A stretch of DNA of 12,485 bases from Myxococcales bacterium (GCA_012513515.1 JAAZCA010000012.1:1-12485); one strand, 5' to 3'. Shown: positions 5,213 through 10,702, counted from the stretch's first letter. Numbers and translations are program-made. Notes: generated by a model from the sequence alone, not told the origin.

Positions 5213-5494
5213 TCTGCTCCAGCGATGATTGAGTAGTAGGTCGGCGAGGGATTTCCGCTTATAACCGCGGTAATGGCTGTGCGTTGCGAATGGTCGCTAG
5301 GTCTTTTTGCTGTCCAGAAGGATCGGTCATCTTAGTAACTATTATTTGCGGATATAATCTAGTCTTATAAAAGGCTGATCAAAGATCAGGGATCAGGATT
5401 AGACCCCCTCCCGCAACAACCGTGACTGGTGACTGGTGAACGGTCGGAACCCCGCGGTAGCGGCGGCTTAAAACCGTGGGAATGACATTCATGG
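5213..5494. other. Gene-free spacer with small repeats
   Basis: No open frame, tRNA or rRNA is apparent here. The stretch contains GATCA-type short repeats near 5375-5395, the 7-base tandem repeat at 5422-5442, and an imperfect hairpin pairing CCCGCGGT (5451-5458) with ACCGTGGG (5473-5480). A 16-base piece, GCAACAACCGTGACTG (5413-5428), matches GCAACGGCCGTGACTG (5552-5567) in the larger repeat that follows at 14 of 16 positions. This suggests a worn extra copy of one repeat module. Confidence 0.5.
5422..5442. repeat. 7-base tandem repeat
   Basis: GTGACTG occurs twice in tandem (5422-5428, 5429-5435), followed by a degenerate GTGAACG. Its left edge joins the GCAAC...CCGTGA module shared with the long direct repeats. 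Confidence 0.5.
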
Positions 5495-5715
5495 TGTCAT
5501 CTCCGAATGACGAGAAGGTCGTCATCCCCGAGTGCTTTAATCGGGGATCCAGCAACGGCCGTGACTGTGAAAAACAGAAGCTAGAAGCTAGAAAAACCTA
5601 GCCTGTAGAAATCTCGCTTCTCACTTCTAGATTCCAGCTTTTGGATGTTGGTCGATGGCCAATTGTTCATGGTCGAAGTTATTGTTACAGCTAGCTTTTC
5701 AGAGGTTACTTAAAT
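5495..5715. repeat. Long direct repeat, copy 1 (left of three-gene operon)
   Basis: This 221-bp segment matches 8032-8255 in the same orientation, with about 27 differences and small indels by hand alignment, roughly 88% identity. It contains a perfect hairpin, ATCCCCGA (5524-5531) with TCGGGGAT (5541-5548). It also has a larger inverted repeat whose arms, AAGCTAGAAGCTAGAA (5578-5593) and TTCTAGATTCCAGCTT (5625-5640), pair at 14 of 16 positions. No open frame is evident, so it resembles a non-autonomous mobile or extragenic palindromic repeat. It ends 60 bases before the exonuclease start. Confidence 0.85.
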
Positions 5716-5758
5716 TGGCGGTTAACAACTTCCAAACTCCTTGCATAAAGGGGCGCCT

Positions 5759-5779
5759 ATGATAATTCTGGCTCGATGA
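5759..5779 (+). CDS. Possible six-codon leader ORF (MIILAR)
   Basis: AAAGGGG (5747-5753) sits 5 bases before an ATG that encodes MIILAR and stops at TGA 5777-5779, overlapping the exonuclease start as ATGA. The exonuclease frame has no other start between its ATG and the stop codon at 5746-5748, and that ATG is 22 bases from the ribosome site. Translation may therefore enter through this leader by stop-restart coupling. Such a short ORF can also be chance. Confidence 0.35.
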   Translation: MIILAR

Positions 5780-6366
5780 GGAAAAACATTGTAGTATTCG
5801 ACATAGAGACAAAAAACGCCTTTTCAGATGTCGGGGGGAGGAACAATCTCAAGGAGCTTGGGATATCCGTCCTTGGGCTTTACGATTATGCCGATGCTCA
5901 GTACAAAATTTACGAGGAGAAAGAGCTCACCATATTCGTGGAAAGGCTGCAGAAGTCTCCTCTTCTTGTAGGATTCAACAGCAGGAAGTTCGATGTCCCG
6001 GTGCTTCAGAACTATGTCCCTTTCAACCTTTCAAAGCTTCCGCAGCTGGACATAATGGAACAGCTTTTAAACGCCCTTGGCCACAGGGTCAGTCTTGACA
6101 GCGTGGCGCAGGCCACCCTTGGATCCAGCAAGAGCGGCAGTGGGCTCGATGCCATAAAGTTTTTCAGAGAAGGGCGCATCGAAGAGTTGAAAAAATATTG
6201 CATGGATGATGTCAGAATAACGAAGGAAATATTCGAATACGGGGCAACGCATAAAGAGCTGTTTTACACCTCTAAATTTGGGAATGGGAAGAGGAGGGCA
6301 GTCGTGAACTGGTCTGTAGAACATCCTTATGAACAAACTCCTTCGGTTCAGGGTTCCCTTTTTTAA
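5776..6366 (+). CDS. DEDDy-type 3'-5' exonuclease, ribonuclease H-like fold
   Basis: A 196-residue single-domain nuclease. The four acidic metal ligands of DEDD exonucleases are visible: VFDIET (D9, E11), VGFNSRKFD (D73) and YCMDDV (D145, with Y141 giving the Y-x3-D signature of the DEDDy subgroup). The layout resembles YprB-like or helicase-associated exonuclease domains, but the helicase part is absent, so it is a stand-alone nuclease. Substrate (DNA or RNA) is not readable. It heads a three-gene operon; the next gene starts 23 bases after its stop. Its ATG lacks a well-spaced ribosome site of its own and overlaps the stop of a six-codon leader ORF. The residues after 160 are basic (FGNGKRRAVVNW) and could contact nucleic acid. 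Confidence 0.8.
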   Translation: MRKNIVVFDIETKNAFSDVGGRNNLKELGISVLGLYDYADAQYKIYEEKELTIFVERLQKSPLLVGFNSRKFDVPVLQNYVPFNLSKLPQLDIMEQLLNALGHRVSLDSVAQATLGSSKSGSGLDAIKFFREGRIEELKKYCMDDVRITKEIFEYGATHKELFYTSKFGNGKRRAVVNWSVEHPYEQTPSVQGSLF

Positions 6367-6389
6367 ATCGAAATAACACGAGGTCCTAG

Positions 6390-7313
6390 ATGCATGCAGA
6401 ATACGATCTGATAGTTGTAGGGGGAGGAACCGCTGGGTGTTCCGCCGCAATGTTTGTCGCCAGATGCAAATGGAAAGTTCTAGTCATAGACAGGGATGGC
6501 GCTTCTGGATACCTCTCTACGCTTGCGAATGTGAGTTGTTTTCCCGGCTTTCCGGAATCGCTTAGCGGCAGCGACCTTCTTGTCAAACTCAAAAAGCAGG
6601 CTGAGCTCGAGGGCGTAAAATTTCATAGGGATGTTGTATCTGCGGTAGCCGTGAGTGAAAATGCGCCTTGCAGGATTATGACGGAAAACGCGGGTGAATT
6701 CACCGGAAGGAGTTTAATAATAGCGACCGGTTCAGCCGCAAGGAGCAACTATCTCCATGGCGAAAAGGAATTTCTCGCCAAGGGCGTTTCTTACGATGCC
6801 ATCATGGATGCTCCTTCCGTGGCGAGGAGGATTGCTGCTGTGGTAGGCAGAAACCGGCGCTCTGCCGAAGCTGCCGTCTACCTTTCGCGATTTGCAGAAA
6901 AAGTCCATTTCATAATCCCTTCAAGCAAACTGGATATCCCCGATTTTCTTATAACGAAGATTCAGTCCACAAAAAACATCGAGCTGCATTATTCAACTAG
7001 TCTTAAGCGAATAAAGGGCAGCGATCATATTACATCAATCGATCTACTTGCGTCCGGCCATGAAAAAGATCTCGAGGTGTCAGGTGTATTTACATACGTT
7101 CATGAATATCAGCCTGCCACATCGTTTTTGAACAATGTCGTGGAGTTGGGTGAAAACGGCGCAATAAAGGTCGATGTCAATTTTTCGACCACGGCCGATG
7201 GGGTTTTTGCCTGCGGCGACGTGATATGCGGCAGGCCACAGCTTCCTGCTATTTCCTCCGCCCAGGGCATAGTTGCTGGGATTGGCGTTGACAGATTCTT
7301 ATCCAAAATATGA
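6390..7313 (+). CDS. Thioredoxin-reductase-like flavoprotein lacking the CxxC centre
   Basis: A 307-residue two-dinucleotide-domain flavoprotein of thioredoxin reductase layout. Visible are the FAD motif GGGTAG (11-16), NVSCFPGFPESLSG (47-60), ATGSA (112-116), and the C-terminal FAD motif FACGDV (273-278) with the PQLPAISSAQG helix. In true TrxB the sequence after GVSY is the redox pair CATC; here GVSY is followed by DAIM (136-139), so both redox cysteines are gone. The NADPH loop, normally GGGNSA, reads GRNRRSAEA (153-161) and is also degenerate. It therefore cannot reduce thioredoxin in the usual way. It may oxidise or reduce another carrier, or only bind nucleotide. A GAGG lies 7 bases before the ATG. 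Its stop overlaps the next gene's start by ATGA, so translation is coupled. Confidence 0.85.
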   Translation: MHAEYDLIVVGGGTAGCSAAMFVARCKWKVLVIDRDGASGYLSTLANVSCFPGFPESLSGSDLLVKLKKQAELEGVKFHRDVVSAVAVSENAPCRIMTENAGEFTGRSLIIATGSAARSNYLHGEKEFLAKGVSYDAIMDAPSVARRIAAVVGRNRRSAEAAVYLSRFAEKVHFIIPSSKLDIPDFLITKIQSTKNIELHYSTSLKRIKGSDHITSIDLLASGHEKDLEVSGVFTYVHEYQPATSFLNNVVELGENGAIKVDVNFSTTADGVFACGDVICGRPQLPAISSAQGIVAGIGVDRFLSKI

Positions 7314-7984
7314 CAATCAAAGCCCTAATTTTTGATTTTGACGGAGTGATAACCGACACAGAACCCATTCATATGAACGCATGGCTCTCCGCGCTCGAGT
7401 CCTTCGGCATCTCTTTTAGCGAGAATGACTATAAAAATTTTTACATCGGTCTCAACGACAGGGACTTTCTGTACGAGATTGGTCGTAGAAACTCTGTTAG
7501 CTTTGACGATGCCCAAAAAACAGAGCTCATAAAAATAAAAGCAGCCATATGTATGGAGCGCTTGAAGTCGGAGATACCTCTCATCCCTGGAGTAAGAGAG
7601 TTTATAGAAGAGAGTTCGAAAAAATATATGCTGGCTATATGCAGTGGTGCACTTCGCAGCGAAATAGGATTCATACTTAAAAAATCCGGCCTCTTTGATT
7701 ATTTTTGTACCATCATATCGGCTGAGTCGGTGGAGAAGGGAAAGCCAGATCCCGAGGGATATATCAAAACCCTCGAAGATCTTCGGGTGCTCTTTTCATC
7801 TGTCATACTTGCGAACGAAGTCGCAGCTATCGAGGATTCTCCGAAAGGCATAGAGGCCGCCCGCAAGGCCGGTCTGAAGTGCATAGGTGTCACCAACTCC
7901 TATCCGAGGGCCGAACTGACCTTTGCGAATCTTGTGGTGGACTCTCTCGCCGAACTGGATTCTGTCAGTTTCGATCTTAAGTAA
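7310..7984 (+). CDS. HAD-superfamily phosphatase / beta-phosphoglucomutase-like hydrolase
   Basis: A 224-residue haloacid-dehalogenase-fold enzyme with a helical cap (about 18-85). All four catalytic motifs are present: FDFDGV (nucleophile D9, acid/base D11), CSGA (S112), GKPDP (K145) and IEDSPKGIEAA (E175, D176). This set matches the subgroup containing beta-phosphoglucomutase, GPH-type phosphoglycolate phosphatases and small sugar-phosphate phosphatases. Which substrate applies is undecided. It is the last gene of the operon with the exonuclease and the TrxR-like flavoprotein, starting inside the stop of the latter (ATGA). A copy of the long direct repeat begins 48 bases after its stop. Confidence 0.88.
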   Translation: MTIKALIFDFDGVITDTEPIHMNAWLSALESFGISFSENDYKNFYIGLNDRDFLYEIGRRNSVSFDDAQKTELIKIKAAICMERLKSEIPLIPGVREFIEESSKKYMLAICSGALRSEIGFILKKSGLFDYFCTIISAESVEKGKPDPEGYIKTLEDLRVLFSSVILANEVAAIEDSPKGIEAARKAGLKCIGVTNSYPRAELTFANLVVDSLAELDSVSFDLK

Positions 7985-8031
7985 TCTCTGAAAAATCAGC
8001 AAATTCAGGGCGCCTCTAAAAACTATGCGCT

Positions 8032-8255
8032 TGTCATCCCCGAGTGACGAGAAGGTTGTCATCCCCGACTGGTTCTATCGGGGATCTCGCAACAGCCGTG
8101 AAGTGGGAAAAACAGAAGCTAGAAGCCAGAAAAACCTCGCCTGTAGAAATCTCGCTTCTCACTTCTAGATTCTAGCTTCTTGATGTTTTAGTCGATGGTC
8201 AATTGGTCATGGTCGAAGTTATTGTTGCAGCTAGTTTTTCATAGGTTTCTTATAT
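8032..8255. repeat. Long direct repeat, copy 2 (right of three-gene operon)
   Basis: The partner of 5495-5715, same orientation. It keeps the hairpin ATCCCCGA (8061-8068) with TCGGGGAT (8078-8085), and the larger arms AGAAGCTAGAAGCCAGAA (8114-8131) and TTCTAGATTCTAGCTTCT (8163-8180), pairing at 16 of 18 positions. TGTCATCCCCGA occurs twice at its left edge (8032-8043, 8057-8068). Its right end covers the stop codon (8250-8252) of the convergent methyltransferase gene. The repeat therefore fills the whole gap between two gene ends and may also act as a terminator. Confidence 0.85.
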
Positions 8256-10088
8256 GATTCCCTTGAGGATCTTCTCTACGGTTTCGTATCTCCCCAATGG
8301 GGGGAATATGTAAGCCCCGGATATTTTTCCGGAGCCCTTGGCGGCGGAAACTATATCCCGCGCAATTTCCAGGCCGTACTTTTTTTGTGCGTCGCCGGAT
8401 TTGGCAGAGACCATTTTGTCGAGAATATGCTTTGGAATCTGCATTCCGGGAACTTCGTTGTGCAAAAATTCTGCATTTCGCAGAGAAACCAGCGGCAGCA
8501 CCCCTACAAAAAATGGTATGTGCGACAGGTCCTTTATTTTTTCGAGGAATCTGGCGAGCATCTTCTGATCATATACAGGTTGTGAAAACGCGAACTCAGC
8601 GCCTGAAGCTATCTTACTGCGAAACCTTTCGACTTCAGTGTCGATGTCGATTGCGCCGGGGTTGACGCCGCAACCGATCAGGAACTTTGTTGCCTGTTTT
8701 ATCGGTCTGCCAGCAAAATCCAAGCCGAGGTTTAGGTTGGATATGAACCGTATCAATCCGATGGAATCAACATCGAAAACAGCCGATGCTTCAGGATAGT
8801 GTCCCATCTTCGGCGGGTCACCGGTTATCACTAGGACGTTATGAAGGCCCAGTGCGGATGCCCCGATGAGGTCCATCTGCATGCCAAGAATATTTCTGTC
8901 GCGGCAGCAGTAATGAACTATCGTCTCTATACCTACTTTGCCTTTTATAAGTGACGCAAGAGCTATCGGGCTCATGCGCGCCATGGCCCGCGGTCCGTCG
9001 GCTATATTTATCGCGTCCACCCCCAGTTGCTTCAGAGATTTGGCAGCATCGATGGAGGATGAAGGATCGGTACCGAGGGGAGGATCGACTTCGACTGATA
9101 TTGCGAATTTTTTACCAATTACTGCGCCGAAAAGGCTTTTTTGTTCGGGCGGAATCGGACTGACTGGCTTTGAAATTGACTCGACTATGCTCTTGGTATT
9201 TGAGCGCTGCCCCGGTCTCATGGTTTTAAGATATTTTTTTGCCTCTTTGATGTGTTCCGGTGTAGTGCCGCAGCATCCTCCGATGAGGGCGACTCCGAGC
9301 ATGGCATATCTTCTTGCGTATTCTGCAAAATATTCCGGGCTTGCAAGGTACATCAGGCGTCCGTTGACCATCTGTGGCAGACCGGCGTTTGGCATTGCTG
9401 AAAGAGGAGTTTTAGTAGCAATCGACATCCTTTTTATAGCTTCGAATACACCCTGAGGACCGTCACAGCAGTTTACTCCTATTACGTCCGCACCCCAATT
9501 TTCCATCTGTGCTGCGGCATATTCCGGCAGAAGCCCTTCAAATTCCCCCTCGCCGAGGTGTTTTAGGGAGACTTGGGTTATTACGGGTTTATTCGATACC
9601 TCTCTGGCGGCTTCGTATGCTATGTGAAGCTCATCGAGATGGATGAATGTTTCAAGGAGTATTACGTCTGATCCGGCATCGGAGAGGGCCTCGATTTGTT
9701 CCGTAAAAAAACTTTTCATTTCTGAATCGGTCATTCCACCGGAATTTTTGCGAGTCCATGATATCGGACCTATCGATCCTGCGACGAAGGCGCGTTCCCC
9801 AGCCGACTCTCTAGCGATTTTTACGCCGGCCCTGTTTATCTCAGCCACCTTTCCATCGAGACCATGCGCTGCGAGCGCAGGCCTGCTGCCGGTGAATGTG
9901 TTGGTTTCTATGAGAAGAGCCCCGGCGGATATATAGCTGTCATGAATTTCTTTTATAAGGGAGGGGTTGGAGATGTTGAGTTCATCGAAACACCTGTTTA
10001 TGAATATCCCGCGTTTGTATATCTCGGTTCCAAGCGCGCCGTCGGCAAGGATTCCTTCTTCGCGGAGCCTTTTCATGAAGTCATTCAT
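8250..10088 (-). CDS. Bifunctional homocysteine S-methyltransferase / methylenetetrahydrofolate reductase
   Basis: A 612-residue cytoplasmic fusion for methionine synthesis. The N-terminal half (about 5-290) is a Pfam S-methyl_trans domain: it has DGALGTE at the start and zinc-binding cysteines in GVNCC (C207) and GGCCGT (C272, C273). After a linker of about 30 residues, positions 325-612 form an MTHFR domain with VEVDPP (catalytic glutamate near 333) and ITGDPPK for FAD. The two-domain order matches YitJ-type proteins in Firmicutes and other bacteria. There is no cobalamin domain, so this is not full MetH; the methyl donor (methyl-THF or S-methylmethionine) is not certain. The start at 10088 overlaps the previous stop as TGATG, with GGAGGG 12 bases upstream, implying coupled translation. 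A start at 10121 would lie within the upstream gene. Confidence 0.88.
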   Translation of the reverse strand: MNDFMKRLREEGILADGALGTEIYKRGIFINRCFDELNISNPSLIKEIHDSYISAGALLIETNTFTGSRPALAAHGLDGKVAEINRAGVKIARESAGERAFVAGSIGPISWTRKNSGGMTDSEMKSFFTEQIEALSDAGSDVILLETFIHLDELHIAYEAAREVSNKPVITQVSLKHLGEGEFEGLLPEYAAAQMENWGADVIGVNCCDGPQGVFEAIKRMSIATKTPLSAMPNAGLPQMVNGRLMYLASPEYFAEYARRYAMLGVALIGGCCGTTPEHIKEAKKYLKTMRPGQRSNTKSIVESISKPVSPIPPEQKSLFGAVIGKKFAISVEVDPPLGTDPSSSIDAAKSLKQLGVDAINIADGPRAMARMSPIALASLIKGKVGIETIVHYCCRDRNILGMQMDLIGASALGLHNVLVITGDPPKMGHYPEASAVFDVDSIGLIRFISNLNLGLDFAGRPIKQATKFLIGCGVNPGAIDIDTEVERFRSKIASGAEFAFSQPVYDQKMLARFLEKIKDLSHIPFFVGVLPLVSLRNAEFLHNEVPGMQIPKHILDKMVSAKSGDAQKKYGLEIARDIVSAAKGSGKISGAYIFPPLGRYETVEKILKGII

Positions 10089-10702
10089 CAGAAGACGTTT
10101 CCCTCCGGATTTCGCATGCACATGTTGTTTCTTCGCTCTTCCCCTATGGATGAGACCTTGGCTCTTCCGTAATCATGTCCTGGGTACACCTTTGTAGCGG
10201 CGGGGAGATTGGCAAGGCGCTTGAGGGACTCTGTCATGTCGGATGGACTGCCGCCTGGCAGATCGACTCTTCCGCACGCATCCACAAAGAGGGTGTCACC
10301 TGTGATTACGCTATCATATGCCAAAAAGCATTGTGATCCCTGCGTGTGACCAGGGGTGTGAATGCATTCAATTTCCAATTTTCCTATTTTGATTATGGTG
10401 CCTTCTTCCGTGTACTCCAGCGCGACTCCCTTCAGATCTTCGACGGGTTCCAAGCGATGCACAAAAACCTTCGACCCTGTTATCGCCGACAGTTCTGCCG
10501 CTGCGTTGGCATGGTCGAAGTGAGCGTGTGTAAGCAGAATCTTTTGGATCTTCCATCCTATCCCAGCAGCCGACCTCTTGATGGCGTGAGCATCCCACGC
10601 CGGATCGACCGCTGCGCAAAACCCGCTTTCAGCGTCGCCGATTAAATACGCGAAATTCATCATCGGGCCGATCGGTATCTGAATTATGGAAGAGGTAGGC
10701 AT
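10088..10702 (-). CDS. Glyoxalase II-like metallo-beta-lactamase-fold hydrolase
   Basis: A 204-residue single-domain MBL-fold hydrolase. Metal ligands are all visible: THAHFDH (H59, H61, D63, H64), TPGHT (H119), GDTLF (D136) and YPGHDYG (H176). The GDTLFVDACGRVDLPGG block is typical of hydroxyacylglutathione-hydrolase-like and persulfide-dioxygenase-like proteins. The short length, without the full C-terminal glutathione-binding helices of classical glyoxalase II, fits the general YcbL-like group that hydrolyses thioesters. GGAG lies 7 bases before the start. It sits 56 bases after the DUF2203 gene and overlaps the methyltransferase/MTHFR start, so a link to sulfur or one-carbon metabolism is suggested by context but not shown. 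Confidence 0.87.
   Translation of the reverse strand: MPTSSIIQIPIGPMMNFAYLIGDAESGFCAAVDPAWDAHAIKRSAAGIGWKIQKILLTHAHFDHANAAAELSAITGSKVFVHRLEPVEDLKGVALEYTEEGTIIKIGKLEIECIHTPGHTQGSQCFLAYDSVITGDTLFVDACGRVDLPGGSPSDMTESLKRLANLPAATKVYPGHDYGRAKVSSIGEERRNNMCMRNPEGNVF

Follow-up and report, generated by a model that had tools for sequence, protein, structure and literature searches.

MITEs derived from IS5, 140–252 bp long, are known in Methanosarcina and M. burtonii (PMC3852290). The dRS3 and RS units of Neisseria form mosaic elements there, and the Correia elements are separate MITEs with a TA duplication and 26-bp inverted repeats (PMC3898611). The REPs with a CGTC tag, among them the neisserial dRS3, are reported without a dedicated transposase; in the survey of this group, the associations with transposase genes are only fortuitous and the loops typically contain 4–5 nt (PMC3733652). 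For Porphyromonas gingivalis, the part of the source drawn on here describes a MITE with an internal minisatellite (PMC4596501).

The window analyzed here is a whole contig of 12,485 nt (C12) from a Myxococcales bacterium, the genome of which (G000) comprises 1.79 Mb in 42 contigs and is 99.3% complete. Two direct repeats bracket three of its genes, and a sequence-only reading of the window had read them as possible borders of a cassette by which the genes were delivered or could be excised. Very probably, both repeats instead arose by insertion of members of a single MITE-like family, high-copy and non-autonomous, the elements of which have IS5-type terminal inverted repeats (TIRs), a 4-bp TTAA-like target duplication, and a mosaic interior.

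Like the IS5-derived MITEs, these elements are short and without ORF, with IS5-type TIRs, several copies, and a short target duplication (present in some of those MITEs). On the other hand, the interior is here a mosaic of REP-like hairpin and tandem repeats and not a deleted IS, the autonomous partner is absent from the genome, and the duplicated target is a TTAA-like tetramer (PMC3852290). The intergenic mosaic elements of Neisseria, together with the Correia MITEs, are the nearest architectural analogues. The neisserial mosaics are likewise intergenic and combine longer modules with a dRS3-type hairpin (ATTCCC-N8-GGGAAT there, ATCCCCGA-N9-TCGGGGAT here), but the hairpin is here inside a TIR-bounded element (PMC3898611). 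With the CGTC-tagged REPs, the hairpins share an AT-starting stem of 8 bp that is preceded by a GTC tag and followed by a CCA-like tail (CGTC ATCCCCGA...TCGGGGAT CCAG), whereas the loop is here 9 nt and an IS5-type MITE carries many of the copies (PMC3733652). The MITE of P. gingivalis also has tandem repeats in its interior; it belongs to another organism and has another sequence, and the part of the source drawn on here states no REP-like hairpins (PMC4596501). IS5-derived MITEs being already known, the novelty lies in this repeat family and in REP hairpins nested within IS5-type ends.

The two copies in the window

The stretches 5495–5715 and 8032–8255 are the sole long direct repeats within the window. 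As the sequence-only reading had it, they share the same orientation and are about 88% identical: a global alignment gives 196 identical columns of 224 (87.5%), with a score of 166.5 (at most 10.5 in 200 shuffles) and a longest identical run of 34 bp. The strong hairpin that was claimed for each copy, ATCCCCGA-N9-TCGGGGAT, is also present in both. The coordinates hold for the matching stretches and not for the ends of the elements, since copy 2 spans 7981–8249 and copy 1 extends to the left up to about 5329. For the map of the elements, we defined modules A (the hairpin), B (the palindrome), and C (the right end), and added a left end L from sister copies; the map covers the sequence stretches around matches.

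Copy 2 is complete, with TIRs that have one and three mismatches to the 20-bp consensus:

7981–8249, plus strand: copy 2, complete MITE-like element of 269 bp, left TIR-L-A-B-C-right TIR (module map)
7981–8000, plus strand: left TIR GTAATCTCTGAAAAATCAGC, the TAA of which (7982–7984) terminates the HAD gene
8061–8085, plus strand: REP-like hairpin (pattern search)
8111–8187, plus strand: module B (module search)
8191–8255, plus strand: module C, right end plus flank (module search)
8230–8249, minus strand: right TIR GAAACCTATGAAAAACTAGC (TIR consensus)
8250–8253, no strand: right-hand target copy TTAT, with the stop codon of the MTHFR-like gene inside it

The left-hand counterpart of the target copy is TTAA at 7977–7980, and the two agree at three of four positions. 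The HAD protein ends in ...FDLK*, with the stop inside the left end of copy 2, and the MTHFR-like gene, which converges on the HAD gene, has its stop codon directly next to the right end.

Copy 1 is longer and has only its right end:

5329–5709, plus strand: copy 1, with U, a heptamer array, an inverted REP-like hairpin, A, B, C, and the right TIR; left TIR missing
5495–5567, plus strand: module A, 73 bp, which holds the CGTC-type REP-like hairpin (module search)
5524–5548, plus strand: REP-like hairpin ATCCCCGA-N9-TCGGGGAT (pattern search)
5573–5650, plus strand: module B, imperfect palindrome with AGAAGCT heptamers (module search)
5651–5715, plus strand: module C, right end plus flank (module search)
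5690–5709, minus strand: right TIR GTAACCTCTGAAAAGCTAGC, flanked by TTAA (5710–5713)

We did not find a recognisable left TIR in copy 1. From about 5329, its left part consists of a further family module, which occurs at at least 15 other places, many of them preceded by hexamer arrays. Short tandem arrays occur in the elements as the heptamers TGACTGG and AGAAGCT and, upstream of module U, as the hexamers CTTAAT/CTTCAT (window 5426–5440; sister copies C39:10571, C36:107410, and C6:47585). We take these arrays to resemble the short tandemly repeated repetitive sequences of other bacteria.

A dispersed family with conserved ends and target duplications

With 5495–5715 as query, BLAST gives 81 matches, on many contigs of the genome itself, and the search with modules A, B, and C and the left end L gives about 98 merged loci in the 1.79 Mb. 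The order across loci is nearly always left end L-A-B-C-right end, with modules absent or doubled in many copies. The full element is limited to this genome: in 60 relatives, nothing longer was found than a match of about 32 bp to the hairpin, and only a few of the genomes have it. The left-end pattern was not found in the collections genome_contigs and viral_contigs, nor copy 2 among plasmids or phages, collections that may omit records of this genome or of very near ones. In two viral contigs (L316 and L318), a TIR-like end lies right at the edge; a search of plasmids with that end gave no match.

Comparison of left with right ends reveals the terminal inverted repeats GTAACCTCTGAAAAATCAGC / GGAACCTCTGAAAAGCTAGC, and the 20-bp ends have in common G[TG]AACCTCTGAAAA. 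The TIR consensus occurs 80 times in the genome and the reversed control pattern not at all. We could delimit 23 complete elements, of 133–389 bp, without a transposase ORF and nearly all between predicted genes. The 4-bp flanks are identical in nine of the 23 (TTAA, TTAG, TTAT, or TCAA), where shuffling of the flanks between elements gives a mean of 4.2 (p=0.003). With TTAA left out, four identical flanks remain, where 0.8 are expected (p=0.005). In windows of 3 bp and 5 bp around the same 23 elements, there is no excess of identity. Such 4-bp identity is the mark of a transposable element that inserts at TTAA-like tetramers. By definition, TIRs, target duplications, and the lack of an ORF make these elements MITEs, and they are also short and dispersed in multiple copies. 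The interior is a mosaic in which a REP-like hairpin is combined with a palindromic module and with short tandem repeats.

Sixteen of the 84 contig ends of the genome lie within about 60 bp of a family element, and the assembly is therefore broken by this MITE-like family. The contigs that end near elements are C3, C5, C7, C8, C13, C15, C18, C21, C22, C25, C36, C39, and C40.

The bracketed genes

The genes between the two copies, called for context with a simple coding-score script and not with an annotation pipeline, are the following:

5776–6366, plus strand: RNase H-like 3′-5′ exonuclease (PF13482/PF10108), conserved in the class; outside the element
6390–7313, plus strand: pyridine nucleotide-disulphide oxidoreductase (TrxR-like); outside the element
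7310–7984, plus strand: HAD-family hydrolase, with its stop codon from the left end of copy 2; otherwise outside the element

On the minus strand, 8250–10121 encodes a fusion of homocysteine S-methyltransferase and MTHFR domains, of which relatives have full-length homologues in the same place.

That the repeats delimit a mobile or excisable unit of three genes, whether homologous recombination moves it or the MITEs serve as the ends of a composite transposon, could draw on their common orientation, on the 87.5% identity, and on the identical run of 34 bp, which are in principle enough for homologous recombination. The relatives speak strongly against it. In two genomes of the same family (G001 and G002), the complete order exo-TrxR-HAD, MTHFR-like, MBL, DUF2203, GreA, DctM-like is present without the repeats, and the order is largely kept, again without repeats, in one genome of the same order (G004) and in three of the same class (G017, G023, and G033). 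Of the 45 genomes of the search, 40 have the exonuclease, among them all 28 of good quality. Most of the nearest named relatives recovered with this protein are deposited as MAGs of uncultured Deltaproteobacteria. The block being syntenic where the repeats are lacking, the genes are resident and the repeats came later. Moreover, copy 1 lacks its outer end, which prevents the two copies from acting as a composite transposon. Nor is the arrangement singular: within 2.5 kb of each other, there are 25 neighboring pairs of elements (12.6 expected for random placement), the elements are mildly clustered, and the pair in the window is one among many. A cassette or composite transposon is thus rejected on synteny and on the missing end of copy 1, and we hold it to be extremely improbable. 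The exonuclease, TrxR-like, and HAD genes are ordinary residents bracketed by chance, and the locus is no movable gene cassette.

The headline of the sequence-only reading falls with this result; its alternative, a dispersed genomic family present by chance in both gaps, is borne out by the 98 or so loci. Dozens of intergenic copies together with a gene block kept in relatives, both of which are observed, are what that reading had itself named as evidence against the cassette. A false lead, the movable redox/exonuclease cassette, is removed and replaced by an annotated repeat family present at 16 of 84 contig ends.

The HAD and MTHFR-like genes are 25 bp apart in G001, 62 bp in G002, and 265 bp in the window, a comparison with genomes of the same family, the closest compared (none is of the same genus), and not with an exact empty site. 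The element makes up the difference. Insertion at the two sites of the window is thus suggested by the evidence from the family and, at copy 2, by the gap in relatives; locally, copy 2 has target copies that agree at three of four positions and copy 1 has one end.

Gene ends and RNA structure

A stop codon is abutted or supplied by 12 of 77 TIR ends. In three places, the stop codon of the neighboring gene comes from the end of an element (CTTAAG-TAA/TGA): window 7982–7984, C27:8649–8652, and C14:32128–32131. At such sites, the C-termini of genes have been rewritten by insertion. The simplest account of the frequent contact with stop codons is the preference for a TTAA-like target.

The repeats could also be kept for a function, as bidirectional terminators or as 3′-end hairpins of mRNAs at gene ends. 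Besides the 12 contacts with stop codons, which the TTAA insertion bias already accounts for, copy 2 fills the gap between two converging genes, as such a function would have it. But the complete elements lie in 16 tandem, 4 divergent, and 3 convergent gaps, in near-equal proportions to the background (324/49/52). The larger imperfect inverted repeat that was noticed in each copy (module B) exists as DNA; as a conserved RNA structure it fails, with compensatory changes at none of 19 pairs in 12 copies. Folding of the whole copies as RNA is better than that of shuffles for copy 1 (z −2.3) and no better for copy 2 (z 0.05). Without compensatory changes, and with copy 2 folding at the level of shuffles, a conserved RNA structure is unsupported. 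The repeat has no match in Rfam, and a structured RNA or riboswitch was discarded on that ground and for the lack of covariation in module B. Retention for a function at gene ends is rather improbable, and no host function is supported for the elements.

The REP-like hairpin

The hairpin ATCCCCGA-N9-TCGGGGAT occurs in 45 exact copies in the genome, while the reversed control pattern does not occur. In copy 1, it fits the CGTC-type REP tag, with an AT-starting stem of 8–9 bp and a CCA-like tail (CGTCATCCCCGA-N9-TCGGGGATCCAG); in copy 2, the tag is TTGTC and the tail TCTCG. The loop is 9 nt in 45 of 45 exact matches, and not the 4–5 nt of CGTC-type REPs. In the tally from the module map, 27 of the 60 loci with module A have parts of the MITE, 7 have module B only, and 26 are alone. 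With about 26 solo hairpins devoid of element ends, part of the dispersal must use another route.

Two Y1 (HUH) transposase genes are present in the genome (C19:40794–41120 and C29:25451–25783). The family could then be a population of REP/REPIN type that owes its movement to a RAYT (Y1 tyrosine transposase), and not an IS5-type MITE, and the 45 exact hairpins and the 26 or so solo loci without TIRs would fit such a population. Yet the stretches of 8 kb around each of the Y1_Tnp genes contain no match to module A, so that the REPs expected to flank a RAYT are missing. The elements also have TIRs and 4-bp duplications, whereas RAYT/IS200 elements are not known to make target duplications. Further, the group with the CGTC-type tag is reported without RAYT association (PMC3733652). 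A RAYT-driven REPIN was dropped as a candidate, there being two Y1_Tnp genes but no repeats nearby, and we consider movement of the whole family by a RAYT quite unlikely; RAYT action on the solo hairpins alone is possible.

For the hairpins inside elements of the MITE-like family, a tentative and still doubtful reading is that IS5-type transposition may spread CGTC-type REP hairpins as cargo within mosaic MITEs. It draws on the 27 of 60 module-A loci with MITE parts and on a like arrangement in an element of G005 (described below). If true, such hitch-hiking would be, in this lineage, a route of spread for the CGTC REPs, described without dedicated transposase, and a testable answer to how REP hairpins disperse without a transposase of their own.

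IS5-type ends and proposed origin

Searches for transposases with PF01609 (DDE_Tnp_1) and NF033581 (IS5_4) gave no match in G000, an assembly in 42 contigs that may have lost the gene, and no pair of TIRs at IS-like spacing surrounds a transposase in this genome. In G033, of the same class, a degenerate element of 783 bp with a broken frame matches transpos_IS5_4 (E 3e-17, 1e-18) and DDE_Tnp_1 (4e-10). This relic shares the 14-bp TIR core GGAACCTCTGAAAAATTAA and is flanked by TTAA/TTAG. We call the ends IS5-type on account of this one relic with the same TIR core, and a mobilising enzyme of IS5 type is inferred from it, across a class-level distance. An intact parent IS was sought in relatives by a scan of their PF01609 and NF033581 loci for the TIR, which only the relic of G033 carries. 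The close relatives of IS5_4 borne on plasmids do not have the core at their ends. As for IS5-derived MITEs, the TIRs are thus shared with an element of the IS5 family, in G033, while an autonomous partner was not found in the same genome.

Mobilization in trans by an IS5-type transposase is the likeliest origin. What the sequences display directly are dispersed copies, conserved ends, target duplications, and loci of relatives without the insert. An IS5-type transposase, now absent from the assembly, would once have recognized the ends, and the element would have moved by cut-and-paste or by copying. Insertion would favor TTAA-like tetramers, often supplied by stop codons, so that elements would lodge at gene ends. 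Copy 2 would have landed where the HAD and MTHFR-like genes converge, between their stop codons. Copy 1 would have landed separately, upstream of the exonuclease, and lost its left end later.

G005, a genome from another genus of the order, has elements of 127 bp with other palindromes between ends that contain the same TIR core. A further element of about 100 bp contains a REP dimer, GTCATTCCCGCG...GGGATGAC, with the same TIR (degraded on the right) and exact TTTA duplications. Both the type of TIR and the carriage of REP-like hairpins therefore extend beyond G000. The G005 elements with the same core are at L260:1943–2069, L261:4836–4962, and L262 from about 4852. In G009 and G012, paired ends GAAACCTCTGAAAAAGTCCC about 123 bp apart (G009:C11:4647–4769 and G012:C36:6729–6851) suggest related MITEs in class-level relatives.
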